A stretch of 22,199 nt of DNA from a virus. How positions within the stretch are numbered: position 1 is the stretch's first letter; every line of letters starts with the position of its first letter. This document shows, in pieces, positions 1,971 through 19,140 of this stretch. Where the stretch lies: positions 1 through 22,199 of IMG/VR virus record IMGVR_UViG_3300024264_000180, one strand, 5' to 3'. Position numbers and translations under genes: made by a program. Below the pieces are notes generated by a model. That model was not told the origin of the DNA and ran no database searches. It saw only the letters and a program-made list of their open reading frames with translations.

Positions 1971-2393
1971 TTATTTGATTTTAATTGTTTTAGGTTTCAT
2001 TGCCTCTGGGACAATTCTTTCTAACTCAATACTCAAAATACCATCTTTGAAGGATGCACCCTGTACAATCACATACTCAGCAAGATTGAATGCTTTCTTG
2101 AAAGAACGATTAGAAATACCTTTGTGTAGGAACTCCTTTTCATCGTCACCTTCTGGTCTTGATGTGGATTCGATTGTAAGAATATTATCCTTACTTTCAA
2201 TAACAATATCTGATTTAGAAAATCCAGCAATTGCAAGTTCAATGCAATACTTCTCCTCTGAATCCTTTACGATATTATATGGGGGATATCCAGTTGATGC
2301 TGGTGCATCAAGTAGACTGTTGAACATTCTATCGAAACCGATAGAATAAGTTTTGACCCTATCAAACGGGTCGATATATTGATTACTTACCAT
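1971..2393 (-). CDS. hsp20: Hsp20-family small heat-shock protein
   Basis: ATP-independent holdase chaperone with an alpha-crystallin domain, found in many marine T4-like phages and presumed to protect virion or host proteins during assembly. In the 140-aa sequence the domain spans about residues 35-130: PYNIVKDSEEKYCIELAIAGF opens it, DIVIESKDNILTIES forms the central strands, and the conserved RSFKKAF and DGILSIELERIVPE segments follow. The C-terminal IKI (137-139) matches the I-x-I motif used for oligomer assembly. It is monocistronic: an exact late box and a 5' stem-loop lie upstream, and a separate early promoter lies right after the stop. A strong AAGGAG precedes the ATG. Late expression suggests a role in morphogenesis. 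Confidence 0.92.
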   Translation of the reverse strand: MVSNQYIDPFDRVKTYSIGFDRMFNSLLDAPASTGYPPYNIVKDSEEKYCIELAIAGFSKSDIVIESKDNILTIESTSRPEGDDEKEFLHKGISNRSFKKAFNLAEYVIVQGASFKDGILSIELERIVPEAMKPKTIKIK

Positions 2394-2422
2394 TTTTTTC
2401 TCCTTAGTTAAGCAAGATTAAA

Positions 2423-2451
2423 TACGATACCCGACTATTCGGCATATCGTA
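2423..2451 (-). promoter_or_regulatory. Stem-loop at the predicted 5' end of hsp20 mRNA
   Basis: Minus-strand TACGATA (2451-2445) pairs with TATCGTA (2429-2423), and an inner CCGA/TCGG stem encloses an ATAG loop. The upstream late box predicts a transcript start near 2450, so the mRNA would begin with this hairpin. 5'-terminal stem-loops are known to stabilise bacterial and phage mRNAs; that role here is inference. Confidence 0.55.
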
Positions 2452-2455
2452 CTCT

Positions 2456-2463
2456 TATTTATA
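2456..2463 (-). promoter_or_regulatory. Late promoter box TATAAATA for hsp20
   Basis: Exact match to the T4 late consensus on the minus strand, 62 bp upstream of the hsp20 ATG and placed between the DUF932 terminator hairpin and the hsp20 leader. Confidence 0.8.
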
Positions 2464-2470
2464 TAGGTAT

Positions 2471-2497
2471 TAAAGAGGGGGATTTCAACCCCCCTCT
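2471..2497 (-). terminator. Terminator-like hairpin after the DUF932 gene
   Basis: An 8-bp stem (AGAGGGGG / CCCCCTCT) with an 8-nt loop begins 8 bp after the stop codon and is followed on the minus strand by TTTAAT. The stem is strong and the T run short. It separates the early DUF932 unit from the late hsp20 unit. Confidence 0.6.
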
Positions 2498-2505
2498 GAA
2501 ACTTT

Positions 2506-3465
2506 TTATGCAGCTTCGGCATACTCAAGTGCTTTGTCTAAAGCATTGAGTTTTACTTTACGGTTACGTCCGTACCATGCAGACTGCAAACGTGAATCAC
2601 CTTCACGACCTTGCAAGTGGTCTGTCATGTATGTAACAGAGTTAAATGCCTGCCACCAAGAACCTTCAGCAAAGTTTGCTCCAGGCTGAGTAGTTAGGTT
2701 CTCCATTGCAATTTTAGCATTACGAGATGTAAATGGTAGAACACCATCTTCTTTCTCTTTTGCAGGCGCACCGAATACTTCATTGAAGTACTGGATAACA
2801 TTGTCACCAGTAGCACGTTTTCCACCAAGGAATGCAGCCATTGATTTGTACTGTTCCATTTTCTCTTTCGCAATACCCATCTGCTCTTTAACCATAGCAG
2901 GGTCGAATGCCTTACGGTGGTTTACAGTAACCATCTTATCAGTATCTTGTGATAAAGACAGTGTAAGAGTGTTATTACATACAACACGAATAGGTGTCAT
3001 ACGGATATTGATAGATTTACCAAATTGGTGTGGGTTAGTAAACAGAAAGTAGTTATCTGTTTGGTCACCTTTGAACAACTCAAAAGACTCTTTTGTCTTT
3101 GCAAGTGCCCAAACCATTTGTCCATCTTTAAGAGAACCAGCAGTATGCATTTCCATATCACCTGCCATCACATAGTCATGGAAGAATTCAAATGCTTCTG
3201 AGTTCTGTACAGGATTCCAACCAGTACCAACAACATCTAGTACAGAGTTGTCTGAGGAACGGATAAGTGCCTCTTTGTTTTTAATAGGAATACCAGTTGC
3301 AGTTACAAGAGGTTGTTTTTCTACTGTCCAATCAAGTCCAGCAACCTTTTGGAATTGGTCTGGTGTTAGTTCACGGTCAACCTTAGTACCTAGTCCATGC
3401 CAAGGAACATCCCCAACATAAGCCATTTGTGCTTCACCGTTTATCATTTCAAGTTCATGTGCCAT
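2506..3465 (-). CDS. DUF932 phage/plasmid-like protein
   Basis: A 319-aa member of the DUF932 family (phage/plasmid-like TIGR03299 type), whose function is not established. Diagnostic features are the N-terminal MAHELEMINGEAQMAYVGD followed by VPWHGLGTKV (about residues 20-31), the WTVEKQPL segment, VVGTGWNPVQNSEAF near 78-92, and IRMTPIRVVCNNTL near 155-170. A C-terminal helical part (about 205-319) includes WWQAFNSVTYMTDH and the GREGDSRLQSAWYGR tract. It is a single-gene unit with its own sigma-70-type promoter, an AGGAG site, and a GC hairpin after the stop, so early expression is likely. Relatives occur in many phages and plasmids near DNA-metabolism genes, but no enzymatic role can be read from the sequence. 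Confidence 0.85.
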   Translation of the reverse strand: MAHELEMINGEAQMAYVGDVPWHGLGTKVDRELTPDQFQKVAGLDWTVEKQPLVTATGIPIKNKEALIRSSDNSVLDVVGTGWNPVQNSEAFEFFHDYVMAGDMEMHTAGSLKDGQMVWALAKTKESFELFKGDQTDNYFLFTNPHQFGKSINIRMTPIRVVCNNTLTLSLSQDTDKMVTVNHRKAFDPAMVKEQMGIAKEKMEQYKSMAAFLGGKRATGDNVIQYFNEVFGAPAKEKEDGVLPFTSRNAKIAMENLTTQPGANFAEGSWWQAFNSVTYMTDHLQGREGDSRLQSAWYGRNRKVKLNALDKALEYAEAA

Positions 3466-3504
3466 TATATATTTCTCCTAGTTATTTTCACAGTTTGTAT
3501 ATTC

Positions 3505-3533
3505 ATTATATACGTTATTAGAACAAAAGTCAA
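3505..3533 (-). promoter_or_regulatory. Sigma-70-type early promoter for DUF932 gene
   Basis: Minus strand: TTGACT at 3533-3528, a 17-bp spacer containing TTTGTTCTAATAAC, and TATAAT at 3510-3505, 40 bp upstream of the ATG. The -35 overlaps the stop codon of the 62-aa gene. It is a diverged third copy of the promoters at 3751 and 4080. Confidence 0.78.
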
Positions 3534-3718
3534 GATGTTTTTGAAACATTTTTGAATAATTCTTTAGCACTCAAAAAAGTTCCATCCTCAAGGGTTAAAG
3601 TAATATCTGGTAATGCACCGAAACCGACAGTACGGTCTACGACTTTCTTACCATTTATGACTAACTCTTGAGCCCACATATTATCCATAAATTGTTTAAA
3701 TTCTGGGGTTAATGTCAT
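3530..3718 (-). CDS. Small hypothetical protein (62 aa)
   Basis: I do not recognise this protein. The 62 residues start MTLTPEFKQFMDNMWAQELV (a likely amphipathic helix), followed by a probable beta hairpin with INGKKVVDRTVGFG and ITLTLEDGTFLSA, then ELFKNVSKTS. There is no signal peptide or membrane segment. Support for it being real: an AGGAAAG ribosome site, a dedicated near-consensus promoter 33 bp upstream of the ATG, and exact fit between flanking promoters. It is one of three consecutive one-gene early cassettes, the usual setting for small host-takeover proteins in T4-like phages; that role is inference. Confidence 0.65.
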   Translation of the reverse strand: MTLTPEFKQFMDNMWAQELVINGKKVVDRTVGFGALPDITLTLEDGTFLSAKELFKNVSKTS

Positions 3719-3750
3719 AACTTCTTTCCTTTTCTCATCATTACTAGCAT

Positions 3751-3801
3751 AGTATACATGTTATTAGAACAAATGTCAAGGCATTTATTGAAGTTTTTTA
3801 A
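3751..3801 (-). repeat. 51-bp direct repeat, copy 1, carrying an early promoter
   Basis: Identical over 51 bp to 4080-4130. It contains TTGACA (3779-3774), a 17-bp spacer and TATACT (3756-3751) on the minus strand, so it is both the promoter of the 62-aa gene and a duplicated cassette boundary. Its upstream end runs into the stop codon of the 82-aa gene. Confidence 0.85.
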
Positions 3802-4046
3802 TTTAATTCGCAAAGAAGCTTCTTAAACTGCTCAATGCGTTTTGCCATCTTTTTATAATTGAGATGGACAGCACCGCCTGTTAAACCAAAATCATACCCA
3901 ATATCATTATAAGTGCGACCACCATATTCATACTCAGCCCACATATGAAGATTACGAACTAAATTTCCATTTTTCTTCATCTGTTTATTTTTATCCCAAG
4001 CAGTAAACTTCTGAATAAAATCTTTTGCAATCAATGTATTTTCCAT
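3798..4046 (-). CDS. Small HTH protein resembling sigma-70 region 4
   Basis: An 82-aa basic protein. Residues about 43-75 (GRTYNDIGYDFGLTGGAVHL, then NYKKMAKRIEQFKKLL) have the layout of a sigma-70 region 4 or related helix-turn-helix: a helix ending in D-I-G, a turn with G-L-T, a recognition helix, then a long basic helix. The N-terminal half (IAKDFIQKFTAWDKNKQMKKNGNLVRNL) is helical and basic. A GAGGA site precedes the ATG and its own early promoter lies 34 bp upstream. It could be a DNA-binding regulator or an RNA polymerase appropriator, but this is fold-level inference. It is distinct from gp55, encoded about 3 kb away. Confidence 0.6.
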   Translation of the reverse strand: MENTLIAKDFIQKFTAWDKNKQMKKNGNLVRNLHMWAEYEYGGRTYNDIGYDFGLTGGAVHLNYKKMAKRIEQFKKLLCELN

Positions 4047-4079
4047 AAGTATTCCTCTTTCAACTCATCTTACTTATAC

Positions 4080-4130
4080 AGTATACATGTTATTAGAACA
4101 AATGTCAAGGCATTTATTGAAGTTTTTTAA
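4080..4130 (-). repeat. 51-bp direct repeat, copy 2, carrying an early promoter
   Basis: Identical over 51 bp to 3751-3801. Minus strand: TTGACA (4108-4103), a 17-bp spacer and TATACT (4085-4080), driving the 82-aa gene. It ends just before the gp46 stop at 4132, so gp46 and this promoter are adjacent. Confidence 0.85.
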
Positions 4131-4131
4131 A

Positions 4132-5844
4132 TTAATTTGTGGATATTCTACTAAAGTTCTGAACCTTTTCAAACTTAACAATACTTCTGAACTTATCAAA
4201 TAGCATATCTTGTTTGTGTGATATAACAAATACATTCTGGTCGTGGAACGTATTGAGGATTTTGAGGAAGTCATCTGTACCTGTACCATCCAAAGAGGAA
4301 TCAAAGATTTCATCTAAGATTAGTAGGTTGGTATTAGTAGAGTTCTTCATCTTTGCGATTGCTCTCCATGTGAATAGGAGTGCAAGGTCGATACGCATCT
4401 TCTCACCTTCAGAGAATGATGCATAAGAGAATTCATCACGAAAGCGTGACTTGATTGTCTCATTGAAGTTTTCGTCAATATTAAAGTTGACAAAGAAGTC
4501 CATTGAGGATAGGTATGTGTTTACCAACTTATTCATAATTGGTAGATACTGTTTAATAATCTTAGTCTTAATACCAGAGTCTTGCAAAAGGTTCTTAGCA
4601 ACATCAACATAAAACTTATCTTCAGTTAACTTAGACCTTTGTTGTTCTATAAGTTCAAGTTGTCCTTTGAGTTTTGCAAGTTTTTCTTTATCTTCATCAG
4701 ATATAGAACCACTCTCATATGTCTCAATATCTTTTGCTAACTTAGAATTGAACTTTTCCATCTCTGTAATAGTTGCACGAAGTTTTGCAATCTCTACATC
4801 ATGCTTACGAATAGATTCTAAGTTTGTTATAATAACATCTAGTTTTGACTTTTCGGTGTTTTCCAACTCTTCAAGTTGTCGGATTCCGTTTGTGATTTCT
4901 CCAACTTTTTCGGTTCTAGTTGTAATCTGCGTCTGCTTTGTTGTGTCCGTAATCGATTGCTCGCAAGTCGGGCATTCATCGTTGTCCTTGAAAAATTTGA
5001 TTTGACGGTCATGATTATCTTTCCTATTTTGAAGTGCAGCTTCTGTTTTACTTAGTTTAGTAATCTTTTCTTCTAATCTTGCTTGTTCTTGTGCATCGTA
5101 AGACAATTTAGTTTTGTCTTGTTCTAACCCAACAATATCTTCTTTTCTAGTACCAATCGTAAAGTTATTATCAGATATCTTTTGATGGTTCTCAGCAATT
5201 ATCTCTGACTTATTATTAACCACTTGGTCGATAAACTTCTCTTGTAGGTTAATCTTTTCTCGTGTCAAGTCAAAATTATATTCTACGTCACGAGTTTCTT
5301 CATTTAGTTCTTTTGTTTTATTCTTTAACAGGAAGTTCATTAATGAAAAAATCTTGATGTCTAGGATATCCTCGACAACCTCACGGCGTGCTTTAGTTGG
5401 TAATTGCATAAACGGTACGAATGTAGAAGAACCCAAAATAACAACCTGTGTGAAAGAACGATAGTTCAGTCCCATAATTTGTTGTTCTAAGTGTTTCTGA
5501 TAGTCTCGAGCATTCGCATCTTGGTTAATCATGTTACCATTAACCCATACTTCAAATATATTAGGTTTGATGCCACGAACAACTTTTACTTCTTTAGTTC
5601 CAATACTAAATTCTACTTCAACAACAGATGCACCATTGTTAACAGAATTCACTAACTGCTTCTTTGAGATATTACGGAATGGTTTATTAAACAATCCAAA
5701 ACAAAGAGCATCGAGAACAGTACTCTTACCAGCACCATTCTCTCCAATTATTAATGTGGTTGAACTTCTGTCCAACTGAATTTCAGTAAAATTATTTCCT
5801 GTCGAAAGAAAGTTCTTCCAACGTACTTTTTTAAATATTATCAT
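4132..5844 (-). CDS. 46: Recombination nuclease ATPase subunit gp46 (Rad50-like)
   Basis: SMC/Rad50-type ATPase that with gp47 resects DNA ends to feed UvsX-driven recombination-dependent replication. The 570-aa product (T4 gp46 is about 560) has Walker A GENGAGKS at 34-41, two long coiled-coil arms (about 165-285 and 310-415), the zinc-hook CPTC at 291-294, the ABC signature SFSEGEK at 477-483, and Walker B LLILDE at 507-512 followed by the D-loop SSLDG. The ATG overlaps the gp47 stop by one base (TAATG), implying translational coupling. It is the last gene of the gp55-gp47-gp46 operon. All key residues are present. Confidence 0.96.
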   Translation of the reverse strand: MIIFKKVRWKNFLSTGNNFTEIQLDRSSTTLIIGENGAGKSTVLDALCFGLFNKPFRNISKKQLVNSVNNGASVVEVEFSIGTKEVKVVRGIKPNIFEVWVNGNMINQDANARDYQKHLEQQIMGLNYRSFTQVVILGSSTFVPFMQLPTKARREVVEDILDIKIFSLMNFLLKNKTKELNEETRDVEYNFDLTREKINLQEKFIDQVVNNKSEIIAENHQKISDNNFTIGTRKEDIVGLEQDKTKLSYDAQEQARLEEKITKLSKTEAALQNRKDNHDRQIKFFKDNDECPTCEQSITDTTKQTQITTRTEKVGEITNGIRQLEELENTEKSKLDVIITNLESIRKHDVEIAKLRATITEMEKFNSKLAKDIETYESGSISDEDKEKLAKLKGQLELIEQQRSKLTEDKFYVDVAKNLLQDSGIKTKIIKQYLPIMNKLVNTYLSSMDFFVNFNIDENFNETIKSRFRDEFSYASFSEGEKMRIDLALLFTWRAIAKMKNSTNTNLLILDEIFDSSLDGTGTDDFLKILNTFHDQNVFVISHKQDMLFDKFRSIVKFEKVQNFSRISTN

Positions 5845-6908
5845 TACAGTTCTAAGTCACTCGCTTCAAGATATAAAGATTTCATCATATTAGTTAGTCG
5901 GTTCTTATCCAAGGTTACATCTAGTTCTGCAATGTAACGCTCCAATAAAGTCATAGTATCCTCTGCATTTTCGACAATAGTATCATCAACATTCTCTGCA
6001 TCCAATTCACTAAAGTCCTCAACAATCTTTACCTCGTGAGCACCAGACTCACCAAGTACTCTGTCAATAAATCTATCAAATCCGTAAAAGTCTTTTTTGT
6101 TAACTACAATAATTTTAACAAACTTATTCTTTAATTGAGATACGTCAAACTGTGTATAGTCTGTAGTAGTTTCATCATAGAATACTTTCTGAAAGATTGT
6201 GTATGGATTAATGATACGTTCAAGTTCTCTAGTTGATGTATCAAAGACATGGAAACCTTTAGGGCATCCATCATCACTCCATGTCATCTGATAAGTATTG
6301 CCTAGATAGTATACTTGTCCATCATCAGATTTCTTGTGGAAGTGACCACTGAATACTGTATCAAACTTTCTTAGAAATTGTTTATCATACCCACCTTCTG
6401 CAAAGTGTCCAGCGTGCATTTCGAAACCATTAATCTCTAAGTGTCCCATTGCAACTTGTGCCTTGGTATCCTTAATGTGTTCCATTGTGTGTCCATAGTT
6501 GTCTGGACAAATCCAAGGAATAAAACATATAGGTGTGCCATCAAACTCAACGGTTGTCGTTTCTGGGTATACAAACATCTTAGGATATCTACCCTCTACA
6601 AGTTCTGCAAGAGAGTTAACATCATTAGTATTCTTATAGAATGTATCGTGATTACCCACCATCATGTGAAGGGTAATACCTTTGTCTACAAACTTTTGAA
6701 TAAATTTTTGTCGGAAGTCTTGTGCTATCTTGTAGGATACAAACTTACGTCTATCCATAACATCACCCAAATGGATAACTGTATCAATACCATTCTCTTC
6801 AACGTAAGGAAAAAATACTTTCTCCCAGAATTCGTAAAAGTAGTCGTTAAATGATAAGTTATCGTTTCGGGCGCCGAAATGGGTATCAGTTATCAGCGCT
6901 ATTTTCAT
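5844..6908 (-). CDS. 47: Recombination endonuclease subunit gp47 (Mre11-like)
   Basis: Metallophosphoesterase nuclease, partner of gp46. The 354-aa sequence (T4 gp47 is about 339) shows the phosphoesterase motifs in order: D-T-H at residues 8-10 (ITDTHFG), GDVMDRR with Asp49, GNHD at 85-88, MGHLE in the middle, and the metal-binding SGHFHKKS. The C-terminal region (about 250-354) holds the acidic DVSQLKNKF and DFSELDAENVDDT stretches, consistent with the DNA-binding and gp46-contact part of Mre11 proteins. Its start lies 23 bp inside the end of gp55 and its stop overlaps the gp46 start, so the three genes are coupled. The start is fixed by the conserved MKIALITDTHFG. Confidence 0.96.
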   Translation of the reverse strand: MKIALITDTHFGARNDNLSFNDYFYEFWEKVFFPYVEENGIDTVIHLGDVMDRRKFVSYKIAQDFRQKFIQKFVDKGITLHMMVGNHDTFYKNTNDVNSLAELVEGRYPKMFVYPETTTVEFDGTPICFIPWICPDNYGHTMEHIKDTKAQVAMGHLEINGFEMHAGHFAEGGYDKQFLRKFDTVFSGHFHKKSDDGQVYYLGNTYQMTWSDDGCPKGFHVFDTSTRELERIINPYTIFQKVFYDETTTDYTQFDVSQLKNKFVKIIVVNKKDFYGFDRFIDRVLGESGAHEVKIVEDFSELDAENVDDTIVENAEDTMTLLERYIAELDVTLDKNRLTNMMKSLYLEASDLEL

Positions 6909-7452
6909 CTATTATCTCTTCACCTTGTTCATCATAAAATTTTTCAAGTCCTTTTGGTTCACTCTTCTTTTTCTTTTTAGGTTTGTAAACTGCTTCTGGG
7001 GGTAGGAAATTCTTTTGTAGATAATCCACAAACACACCCTGTTCACTATCACCGTCCATTAGAATGTCTACATTCATATTTTCGATAATCTTGTGTTTAA
7101 CGTGCTGTTGTTTCTTTTCTTTTTGAATCCTACGAATAAACGCATAATAGATAATTTGCGTAAAATAAGCAAAAGGATTATTACTCTTTTCTGGATTGAA
7201 GTTACTACAATACTGTAGACAGTTTTCAATACCATCAGAAATCATTTCATCTCTGTAAGTGTAATTTATAAAGTTTGGACGATATGAAAGGTGGTTTGCA
7301 ATCTTTAGGAAACATTCCCCAATGTAATTAGACACAGGTGGTCGTGGGTCACCTTGCGCTTCAGCATCTTTGCATTGCTCTTTCCATTCTGTCATCGCCT
7401 CTAGGAACTCTTTGTTATTAACATAATGAGCACCCGATTTCTTTTTAGCCAT
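6886..7452 (-). CDS. 55: Late-transcription sigma factor gp55
   Basis: Divergent sigma-70-family factor that directs host RNA polymerase to TATAAATA late promoters and is activated by the gp45 clamp. The 188-aa product matches T4 gp55 in size (185 aa). Residues about 45-125 resemble sigma region 2: IGECFLKIANHLSYRPNF, then YRDEMISDGIENCLQYC, then NPFAYFTQIIYYAFIRRIQKEKKQQ, the helix that contacts core and the -10 element. The C-terminus is acidic and contains LEKFYDE, a plausible clamp-binding tail. A sigma-70-type promoter lies about 50 bp upstream, fitting middle/early expression before late genes. It heads the gp55-gp47-gp46 operon, the order known from T4-like marine phages. Confidence 0.92.
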   Translation of the reverse strand: MAKKKSGAHYVNNKEFLEAMTEWKEQCKDAEAQGDPRPPVSNYIGECFLKIANHLSYRPNFINYTYRDEMISDGIENCLQYCSNFNPEKSNNPFAYFTQIIYYAFIRRIQKEKKQQHVKHKIIENMNVDILMDGDSEQGVFVDYLQKNFLPPEAVYKPKKKKKSEPKGLEKFYDEQGEEIIDENSADN

Positions 7453-7527: not shown

Positions 7528-7562
7528 TAGCTTAATTAATTTAAATTTATTTCAAAAATCTC

Positions 7563-7618
7563 TTGCTAATCTCTTGACAACTTGGTATATTAGCTATGTA
7601 GGGTATGAGAATGAATAG
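7563..7618 (+). repeat. Inverted repeat element, left copy
   Basis: 56 bp that reappears as the reverse complement at 19177-19231. There are blocks of 28, 5 and 16 identical bases, with differences only in and beside the middle. Read on the plus strand it contains TTGCTA (7563-7568), a 17-bp spacer, TATATT (7586-7591) and then a fully conserved 27-nt downstream tract, so it could be a rightward promoter antisense to the Sm-like gene and uvsW. Read on the minus strand it follows the Sm-like stop by 10 bp. Similarity continues weakly upstream to about 7541. Confidence 0.8.
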
Positions 7619-7628
7619 AACTATAGAT

Positions 7629-8021
7629 CTAATGTAAAGTCTTAGTAACTACTTCTCCATACTCTTCATCCCATTCATCTTCTTCAATACCCATTAGTTC
7701 GGCATCTGTTGGTTCTCTTTCAACGACATCAATATCTGCGTTCATCCTCATTACACAATGTTCATAAAACTTAGACAAGCCCGTAGAAGCATTTGTGATA
7801 ATCATTACTTTGCTTTTATCTATATTATAGGTATTCTCCTCAGAAAAATGTATCCATCTTACTAAAGACACAGATTCGTCTATTCCAAACTTTGTTACTT
7901 TTGGAACAACTGAAATCTGTAAAGGAGATTGAATTTCAAAAGTTCTTGGATGTTCATCAGCTATGAGATTACAAATAATTTCTTCACCACTTAAAAGTTT
8001 TAGTATTTTGTATTCTGTCAT
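7629..8021 (-). CDS. Sm-like (LSm-fold) phage protein
   Basis: A 130-aa protein whose first 90 residues read as an Sm/LSm-type five-stranded barrel: YKILKLLSGEEIICNLIADE (strands 1-2), RTFEIQSPLQISVVP (strand 3), VSLVRWIHFSEENTYNIDK (strand 4) and the hydrophobic VMIITNASTGLSKFYEH (strand 5 and a following helix). The last 35 residues are strongly acidic (DAELMGIEEDEWDEEYGE). Sm-like proteins of marine T4-like phages are a recognised group, assigned by fold; their RNA or protein targets are not known to me. The ATG overlaps the uvsW stop by 4 bp, so it is translationally coupled to the uvsY-uvsW unit and probably late. An RNA-binding role is inference. Confidence 0.7.
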   Translation of the reverse strand: MTEYKILKLLSGEEIICNLIADEHPRTFEIQSPLQISVVPKVTKFGIDESVSLVRWIHFSEENTYNIDKSKVMIITNASTGLSKFYEHCVMRMNADIDVVEREPTDAELMGIEEDEWDEEYGEVVTKTLH

Positions 8022-18840: not shown

Positions 18841-19140
18841 ATGTCAGAGTTCTATCAAAAGTATAAAGACACCATTAAACGTGTATCTCAACGTAATTAT
18901 AGGCAACGTATCATATGGGTGAACGAACACCTACAGGATAAGTACTGTCATTACTGTGGAGAATCCGAAAATGCATGTCTCCAATTCCATCCTTATGAGA
19001 CAGAAATTCGTAAACGCACAAAACGTAAAGGGCTTAATGAAGAATCCAGACAAGAAATCGTGGATTTAATCAATCAGTCAAAAGTCGTTTGTGCTAATTG
19101 TTACTTAAAATTAGAAAATGATCTAATTGATATTATGTAG
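18841..19140 (+). CDS. Degenerate HNH-like zinc-binding protein on the opposite strand
   Basis: A 99-aa basic protein and the only convincing plus-strand gene. Two CxxC pairs, C36-H-Y-C39 (YCHYCGE) and C84-A-N-C87 (VCANCYLK), flank a spacer with LQFHP (His50), the layout of zinc-ribbon HNH proteins. Typical HNH enzymes have an H-H or D-H pair at the LxFHH position and NCH...H at the end; here Pro replaces the second His and Tyr and Asp occupy the later His positions, so nuclease activity is doubtful. The N-terminal half (EFYQKYKDTIKRVSQRNYRQR) is basic and helical, fit for nucleic-acid binding. Its 5' end faces gp18 and its 3' end faces the gp17 stop. The ribosome site is weak. Relatives occur in marine T4-like phages. 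Confidence 0.72.
   Translation: MSEFYQKYKDTIKRVSQRNYRQRIIWVNEHLQDKYCHYCGESENACLQFHPYETEIRKRTKRKGLNEESRQEIVDLINQSKVVCANCYLKLENDLIDIM

Follow-up and report, generated by a model that had tools for sequence, protein, structure and literature searches.

A 51-bp exact direct repeat in the genome of a Melnitz-like phage probably consists of two members of an early promoter class of this lineage, whose copies would exchange promoter-plus-gene units by recombination; the latest event at the repeat appears to have been the gain of one gene, and a palindrome in the promoter spacer is a putative protein-binding site. The repeat was identified in a 22,199-base virus record carrying T4-type genes (the window, i.e. 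the whole stretch of DNA analysed). The closest named relatives of the window phage are the four Melnitz methylophage isolates: positions 2000-7000 of the window share 87.6% DNA identity with Melnitz across 91% of the interval, and the terminases are 95.4% identical. With its collinear T4 core genes and this high identity, the window phage is, on these comparisons, a marine T4-like relative of methylophage Melnitz. The minus strand encodes, in order, gp46, an 82-aa gene, a 62-aa gene, and a DUF932 gene, and a promoter precedes each of the last three (Table 1).

Table 1. Coordinates of the repeat copies, predicted promoters, palindromes, and genes of the gp46-DUF932 interval in the window.
Feature	Position	Strand	Remarks
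gp46	4132..5844	-	Upstream anchor of the variable interval; recombination endonuclease subunit per annotation of matches; stop codon 4132-4134
Repeat copy 1	4080..4130	-	-35 at 4108-4103, -10 at 4085-4080 (TTGACA-17-TATACT, 4108-4080); A-rich upstream sequence; after gp46 stop, before 82-aa gene
Promoter-plus-gene unit	3780..4108	-	329 bp, promoter and 82-aa gene; once it is removed, the window and near-identical phages are collinear
82-aa gene	3798..4046	-	Between copies 1 and 2; stop codon 3798-3800 inside the repeat
Repeat copy 2	3751..3801	-	Identical to copy 1 (TTGACA-17-TATACT, 3779-3751); overlaps 82-aa stop codon, before 62-aa gene
62-aa gene	3530..3718	-	Stop codon TGA 3530-3532 inside the -35 (TTGACT) of the third promoter
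Third promoter copy	3505..3533	-	Diverged (TTGACT-17-TATAAT, 3533-3505); -35 provides the 62-aa TGA stop; before DUF932
DUF932 gene	2506..3465	-	PF06067, E=4e-38; downstream anchor of the variable interval
Palindrome TGTTnTnAnAACA	4088..4100	.	Spacer of promoter copy 1
Palindrome TGTTnTnAnAACA	3759..3771	.	Spacer of promoter copy 2
Palindrome TGTTnTnAnAACA	4825..4837	.	Exact copy within gp46 coding sequence

Elsewhere in the window, the terminase gene and the structural gene after it flank a small HNH-endonuclease-like ORF that lies on the opposite strand (18841-19140, plus strand; phrog_2255, E=5e-7). The window also contains another repeated promoter-like element, with the tail GCTATGTAGGGTATGAGAATGAATAGA, at 7541-7633 (+) and 19251-19162 (-); its two copies are 86-89% alike, inverted, and 11.5 kb apart, and, judged by position, both are aimed antisense into a neighbouring gene. 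Melnitz-1 has copies as well, one preceding a CDS at 72430 (+) and one at 131053 (-); the element gave no match in Rfam.

The initial annotation had described a 51-bp exact repeat with a TTGACA-17-TATACT promoter in each copy, a diverged third copy before DUF932, promoters abutting the preceding stop codons, and one gene after each promoter, and every one of these features was recovered. The two copies are identical at all 51 positions, and the window has no longer direct repeat (none of 52 bp). The longest direct repeat in order-1 Markov simulations (n=50) averaged 14.5 bp and reached 18 bp at most, which rules out a chance origin. The third copy shares 38 of its 51 positions with copies 1 and 2. 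All three promoters agree with the consensus at 11 of 12 positions and have a 17-bp spacer, the promoter pattern is found three times in the window against 0.00 expected from shuffles, and the copies are predicted, from their sequence only, to be sigma-70-like early promoters.

The class pattern is TTGAC[AT]-TTTGTTnTnAnAAC-nnn-TATA[AC]T. In Melnitz-1, 11 sites match it with no more than one mismatch, all on the plus strand, and one more class-like site with three mismatches is present on the other strand. Melnitz-1 has 74 sites that match the hexamers at 10/12 positions or better across a 17-bp spacer; these comprise 10 with no mismatch to the spacer core, one with a single mismatch, and 63 with four or more. 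A cytosine precedes the -35 in all 11 class sites and in 60/60 non-redundant contexts, this position being outside the search pattern. At up to three mismatches the class promoter was absent from the marine T4-like phages Mosig, HTVC008M, P-SSM2, AG-345-F15, and AG-345-L05, and the idea of a promoter common to Kyanoviridae at large was not borne out by these five phages. The class is discrete and, among the phages tested, specific to the Melnitz lineage. Among 44 IMG/VR records drawn from loci already under study, 29 match at two or fewer mismatches and 15 do not, and the reversed pattern has no match in any of the 44. A scan of viral_contigs gave at least 119 stretches with the promoter class; a cellular promoter is unlikely, as genome_contigs gave three exact pattern matches, all in clostridial MAGs. 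The 193 loci include several ids per contig, and statistics refer to distinct contexts: 65 of 112 have an ORF, 40 codons or longer, terminating no more than 45 nt from the -35, and in 17 of the 112 the stop is the TGA within TTGAC (both raw counts). Melnitz-1 also contains three 12/12 sigma-70-like sites with a different spacer end inside ~150 bp (71657-71808, minus strand).

Alignment with close relatives, which the initial annotation had proposed as a means of detecting promoter-bounded gain or loss, revealed such a change at the repeat pair. Four contigs (L214/L275, L130, L210, and L129), which come from four IMG/VR datasets and are 99.4-99.5% identical to the window, lack the 82-aa gene and have just one promoter in the interval from gp46 to the 62-aa gene. 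The alignment of the unmodified window to each of these contigs breaks at the repeat. After removal of the 329-bp unit, the window aligns with L275 over 6,245 bp without gaps (99.36% identity; 245 bp of this right of the junction), with L130 over 9,465 bp (99.54%, one gap), with L210 over 5,988 columns (99.42%, two gaps), and with L129 over 3,866 columns (99.46%, one gap; ~85 bp left of the junction). The L275/L214 contig ends inside the 62-aa gene, and the L129 contig starts in the last 20 codons of gp46. The healed junction is crossed by six of the seven loci compared, including L209 and L217 (~92% identical); in L212 it is not spanned, and other genes lie beside gp46.

The occupied allele was found in the window contig only, in a searched set from which records very near the window may be missing. 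Because six of seven loci span the healed junction, gain in the window is the simpler polarity, and because the 82-aa family was seen at the gp46-DUF932 interval in the window only, gain is also the simplest history; the last event in the window was most likely the gain of the 82-aa gene. It is distinctly less probable that the ancestor had the unit and that the near-identical phages deleted it between the repeats. Deletion between direct repeats is easy and would yield exactly the L214/L275 allele, but the six loci spanning the junction all lack the unit, L209 and L217 with their differing promoter among them, and the confinement of the family to the window at this interval likewise argues against loss.

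Searches of Pfam, PHROGs (best E=0.027), PDB sequences, and phages (tblastn, best E=0.5) returned no significant hit for the 82-aa protein. An 81-aa homologue in L265 matches Sigma70_r4 (PF04545, E=3.1e-7), and in a single BLASTP comparison the two proteins are identical at 21/56 positions (E=3e-11). The structure model of the 82-aa protein, built on a two-sequence alignment, is helical (mean pLDDT 82), and its best PDB matches, which are weak (E>=0.2), include sigma-factor region 4. Through its homologue and predicted fold, the protein is probably a sigma-70-region-4-like helix-turn-helix protein. Four relatives, 30-42% identical, were identified (L358, L359, L360 on the contig of L265, and L361 on the contig of L274); none carries a class promoter upstream within six mismatches, and all four were rejected as donors of the unit. 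In L361/L274, a gp23-like region, the 82-aa relative, the promoter, and the 31-kb gene f19 adjoin, elements that are far apart in Melnitz-1.

Promoter-to-promoter unit removal was tried on five distinct units, and three of them leave collinear flanks (raw count): the window unit; a 381-bp unit in L329 (P-f183), absent from all three loci compared (93% identity, 1-2 gaps); and a 389-bp unit in L313 and L315 (P-f142), absent from all seven loci compared (74-88%, 6-11 gaps). Removal of the Melnitz-1 unit at 37.4 kb and of the L302 unit gave no continuous alignment, because the flanking genes differ too. Gene content between consecutive promoters varies at four sites. The 37.4-kb site holds f61, f59, or f183, and in L245, L250, and L354 it consists of one promoter with no unit; 29 locus ids place the 62-aa family near gp46-DUF932, and four place it at the 65-kb site; and f46 and the 82-aa family are each also found at two sites. 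The ORF families f43 and f57, which look like ORFs reading through the promoter, were left out of the mobile counts.

Gene f31 follows the TTTGTT-class promoter in L302 (98-811, minus strand) and, as judged by eye, another sigma-70-like promoter in L338 (~4260-4880), where the upstream genes are unrelated to those in L302; this is a promoter-level junction between larger blocks. Changes that are not promoter-bounded were also observed. In L215, a 102-aa ORF and a member of a 172-aa deformylase family lie beside gp46. In Melnitz-1 (135343-135485, in L124), only a remnant of the 62-aa gene persists, flanked by intact promoters that lie 99 bp apart; an internal deletion removed most of the gene and spared both promoters. 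The 40-aa 'polypeptide deformylase' annotated in Melnitz-1 is an ORF that runs across the second of these promoters.

Relatives of the 62-aa protein are present in 31 IMG/VR loci, and 21 of these also include gp46 or DUF932. In 29 loci a member of the 62-aa family occurs along with the start of DUF932, and the region upstream of the 62-aa gene is readable in 26. A class promoter (two or fewer mismatches) stands ahead of the 62-aa gene in 11 of these 26, and none is found within four mismatches in 15; ahead of DUF932, the corresponding figures are 11 and 18 of 29. Diverged relatives keep the gene order without the class promoter, an outcome that the initial annotation had named as refuting, and its reading of the whole interval as units added at the promoter by recombination was not supported for the 62-aa gene and the third copy. 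It was upheld for the exact repeat pair, where empty alleles exist and the flanks are collinear once the unit is removed.

The exact identity of the two copies had been attributed to recent duplication, conversion, or strong selection. At 51/51, the window pair ranks first among 222 within-contig promoter pairs (some contigs being counted under several locus ids); the next-best pair, at 45/51, also flanks one gene (L302, L260). The 55 promoter pairs of Melnitz-1 are on average 69% and at most 82% identical over the 51-bp frame, and over the 19 bp upstream of the core they average 39% and reach 74%, a stretch in which the window pair is identical. The identity of the window pair passes ~20 bp upstream of the core. 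Motif constraint accounts for the core, and the remainder requires conversion or a recent shared origin; identity beyond the motif is what recent duplication or conversion would produce. That selection alone produced the pattern, the copies being alike since the same machinery reads them and the 82-aa gene having been moved by illegitimate recombination at arbitrary points, is improbable. The core is indeed constrained, with fixed and variable positions alternating in the 60 non-redundant contexts, and its palindrome is retained even where shifted, but this explanation covers neither the upstream identity nor the location of both breakpoints within promoters in three units. Splicing of a related phage's cassette into the window by the assembler at a shared promoter is very improbable: the repeat is short, the promoter is common to relatives, and the unit is on one contig only, but two false joins would be required, searches with the 82-aa protein found no near-identical gene elsewhere, and the comparable L313/L315 unit recurs in two datasets.

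In the preferred reading, exchange of units between promoter copies, the 30-50 bp shared by many copies would permit homologous recombination between them, with co-infecting genomes, concatemers, or excised circles as possible partners. Whole promoter-plus-gene units would be inserted or removed, and a promoter would be left at each junction, so that an incoming gene would be expressed early at once and its neighbours would retain their own promoters.

PeSLs (promoter-early stem-loops) are reportedly mobile regulatory cassettes of T4-like phages, as described by Arbiol and colleagues in 2010 and Comeau and colleagues in 2014. The stem-loop is their defining part, and they are exchanged by recombination between copies, with excised mini-circles. 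A passage of one study (PMC4503421) presents the PeSLs of T4-like phages as promoter-mediated modular exchange, and the phages analysed here resemble them in carrying several copies of a sigma-70-like early promoter at junctions of differing gene content. The window copies are strong sigma-70-like early promoters by prediction, and copies lie at gene gain/loss junctions in three of the five distinct units. Within 110 nt upstream, none of the three window copies has a terminator-like hairpin; in the family as a whole, stem-loops accompany 26 of 113 contexts (base-shuffled sequence gave 1.0), and of the 11 Melnitz-1 sites two have one. Since the stem-loop is missing at the window copies, they are not strict PeSLs, and they differ further from PeSLs in being of a type specific to the Melnitz lineage among the phages tested and in having a palindrome in the spacer. 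By analogy with PeSLs, the event in the window may be read as promoter-mediated modular exchange, here without a stem-loop. For Melnitz, a phage of the same lineage as the window phage, 46 promoters were predicted with BPROM, 31 of them early (PMC9004378), and passages of that paper say nothing of a shared spacer motif, of a dispersed palindrome, or of promoter-bounded exchange. No description of the promoter class or of the palindrome was found in the literature searched, these passages included.

The palindrome TGTTnTnAnAACA has the general form TGTTnYnRnAACA, and the third window promoter contains an imperfect version with G as its last base. By a reading of the sites, 14 of the 18 DUF932 regions lacking a class promoter have a sigma-70-like promoter with the same palindrome one base nearer the -35. 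Among 622 distinct sigma-70-like 17-bp sites of relatives, the start of TGTTnTnAnAACA lies 8 bases from the -35 in 92, 7 in 28, 6 in 7, and 10 in 7 (53, 11, 4, and 4 when non-redundant, one offset-10 form having a poor -35); letter-permuted motifs (n=200) averaged 0.025 occurrences in such sites and never exceeded 2. In unrelated viral contigs, 2 of 277 sigma-70-like sites have the palindrome, the comparison set being 120 stretches that match a 14-base pattern and are mostly unrelated to the promoter. The occurrence of the palindrome at several offsets indicates that it is not a rigid part of the promoter.

Melnitz-1 contains 26 copies of TGTTnTnAnAACA, against a mean of 1.0 and a maximum of 3 in 20 order-3 Markov simulations. 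Of 1,024 symmetric layouts, none is more frequent in that genome; the variant TGTTnCnGnAACA follows with 10 copies, and then one with 3. TGTTnYnRnAACA occurs 58 times in Melnitz-1, 58 times in Melnitz-2, and 3-6 times in five other phages of 140-252 kb, and the reversed pattern is absent from Melnitz-1 and Melnitz-2. Each of 12 Melnitz-like IMG/VR records (17.5-59 kb) contains 7-20 copies, and three records of other lineages (72-126 kb) contain 0-3; the reversed control gave 0-2 across these 15 records.

Most Melnitz-1 palindromes (47/58) lie outside sigma-70-like spacers. The ORFs of Melnitz-1 contain 39, against a mean of 4.6 and a maximum of 9 in 100 synonymous-codon shuffles, and the counts were 38 versus 2.7 in the ORFs of 15 relatives' loci and 1 versus 1.3 in those of 10 other viral loci; in the window ORFs, the palindrome is not clearly enriched (2 versus 0.5, maximum 3). 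The codon shuffle also underpredicts controls about twofold (TGCA-N8-TGCA, 44 versus 17.9; TGTT-N8-AACA, 21 versus 9.6), the excess for the palindrome being 8.5-fold, and with the inner pair swapped (RY for YR) the count is 2 versus 1.2. TGCA-N8-TGCA ranks second among layouts (50 versus 80), indicating that such counts can be inflated by coding effects. Of the 39 coding palindromes, 33 are in a single frame, and the same holds for most of those in the shuffles. Covariation between the variable symmetric positions is absent both in promoters (26/76 complementary versus 22.2 in shuffles, P=0.18) and at the 47 non-promoter Melnitz-1 sites (P=0.28 and 0.47 for two pairs), which counts against an operator. 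A post hoc symmetry score was reached in 18 of 20,000 column permutations and 40 of 20,000 random-letter sets and is only suggestive, the positions being mostly fixed by the search pattern. From its sequence and distribution, the palindrome looks like a candidate dispersed binding site for a dimeric protein.

Stoperators are sites of temperate-phage repressors that stop transcription. Those of Cluster A mycobacteriophages are presented in PMC9283540 as many copies of a short, asymmetric binding site across the phage genome. Like them, the Melnitz-1 palindrome is present in many copies beyond chance across one genome; unlike them, it is symmetric, belongs to a T4-like phage, and is a putative site known from sequence alone. 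We tentatively suggest, as a possibility slightly short of even likelihood, that Melnitz-like phages carry TGTTnYnRnAACA as a dispersed putative operator for a dimeric DNA-binding protein, with ~58 copies in Melnitz-1, about ten of them in early-promoter spacers at lineage-dependent offsets and the others mostly intragenic. The promoter would then be a plug-in socket giving strong early expression, operator control, and recombination homology.

As a searchable sequence, the promoter class marks early genes that lack a known function. Near-identical marine T4-like phages with and without the unit (occupied and empty alleles) make promoter-mediated gene exchange open to study at base resolution. 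The dispersed palindrome predicts an undescribed regulator or genome-organizing protein in the Melnitz methylophage lineage; if the operator proposal is true, it would represent a stoperator-like or genome-organizing system in a T4-type phage.
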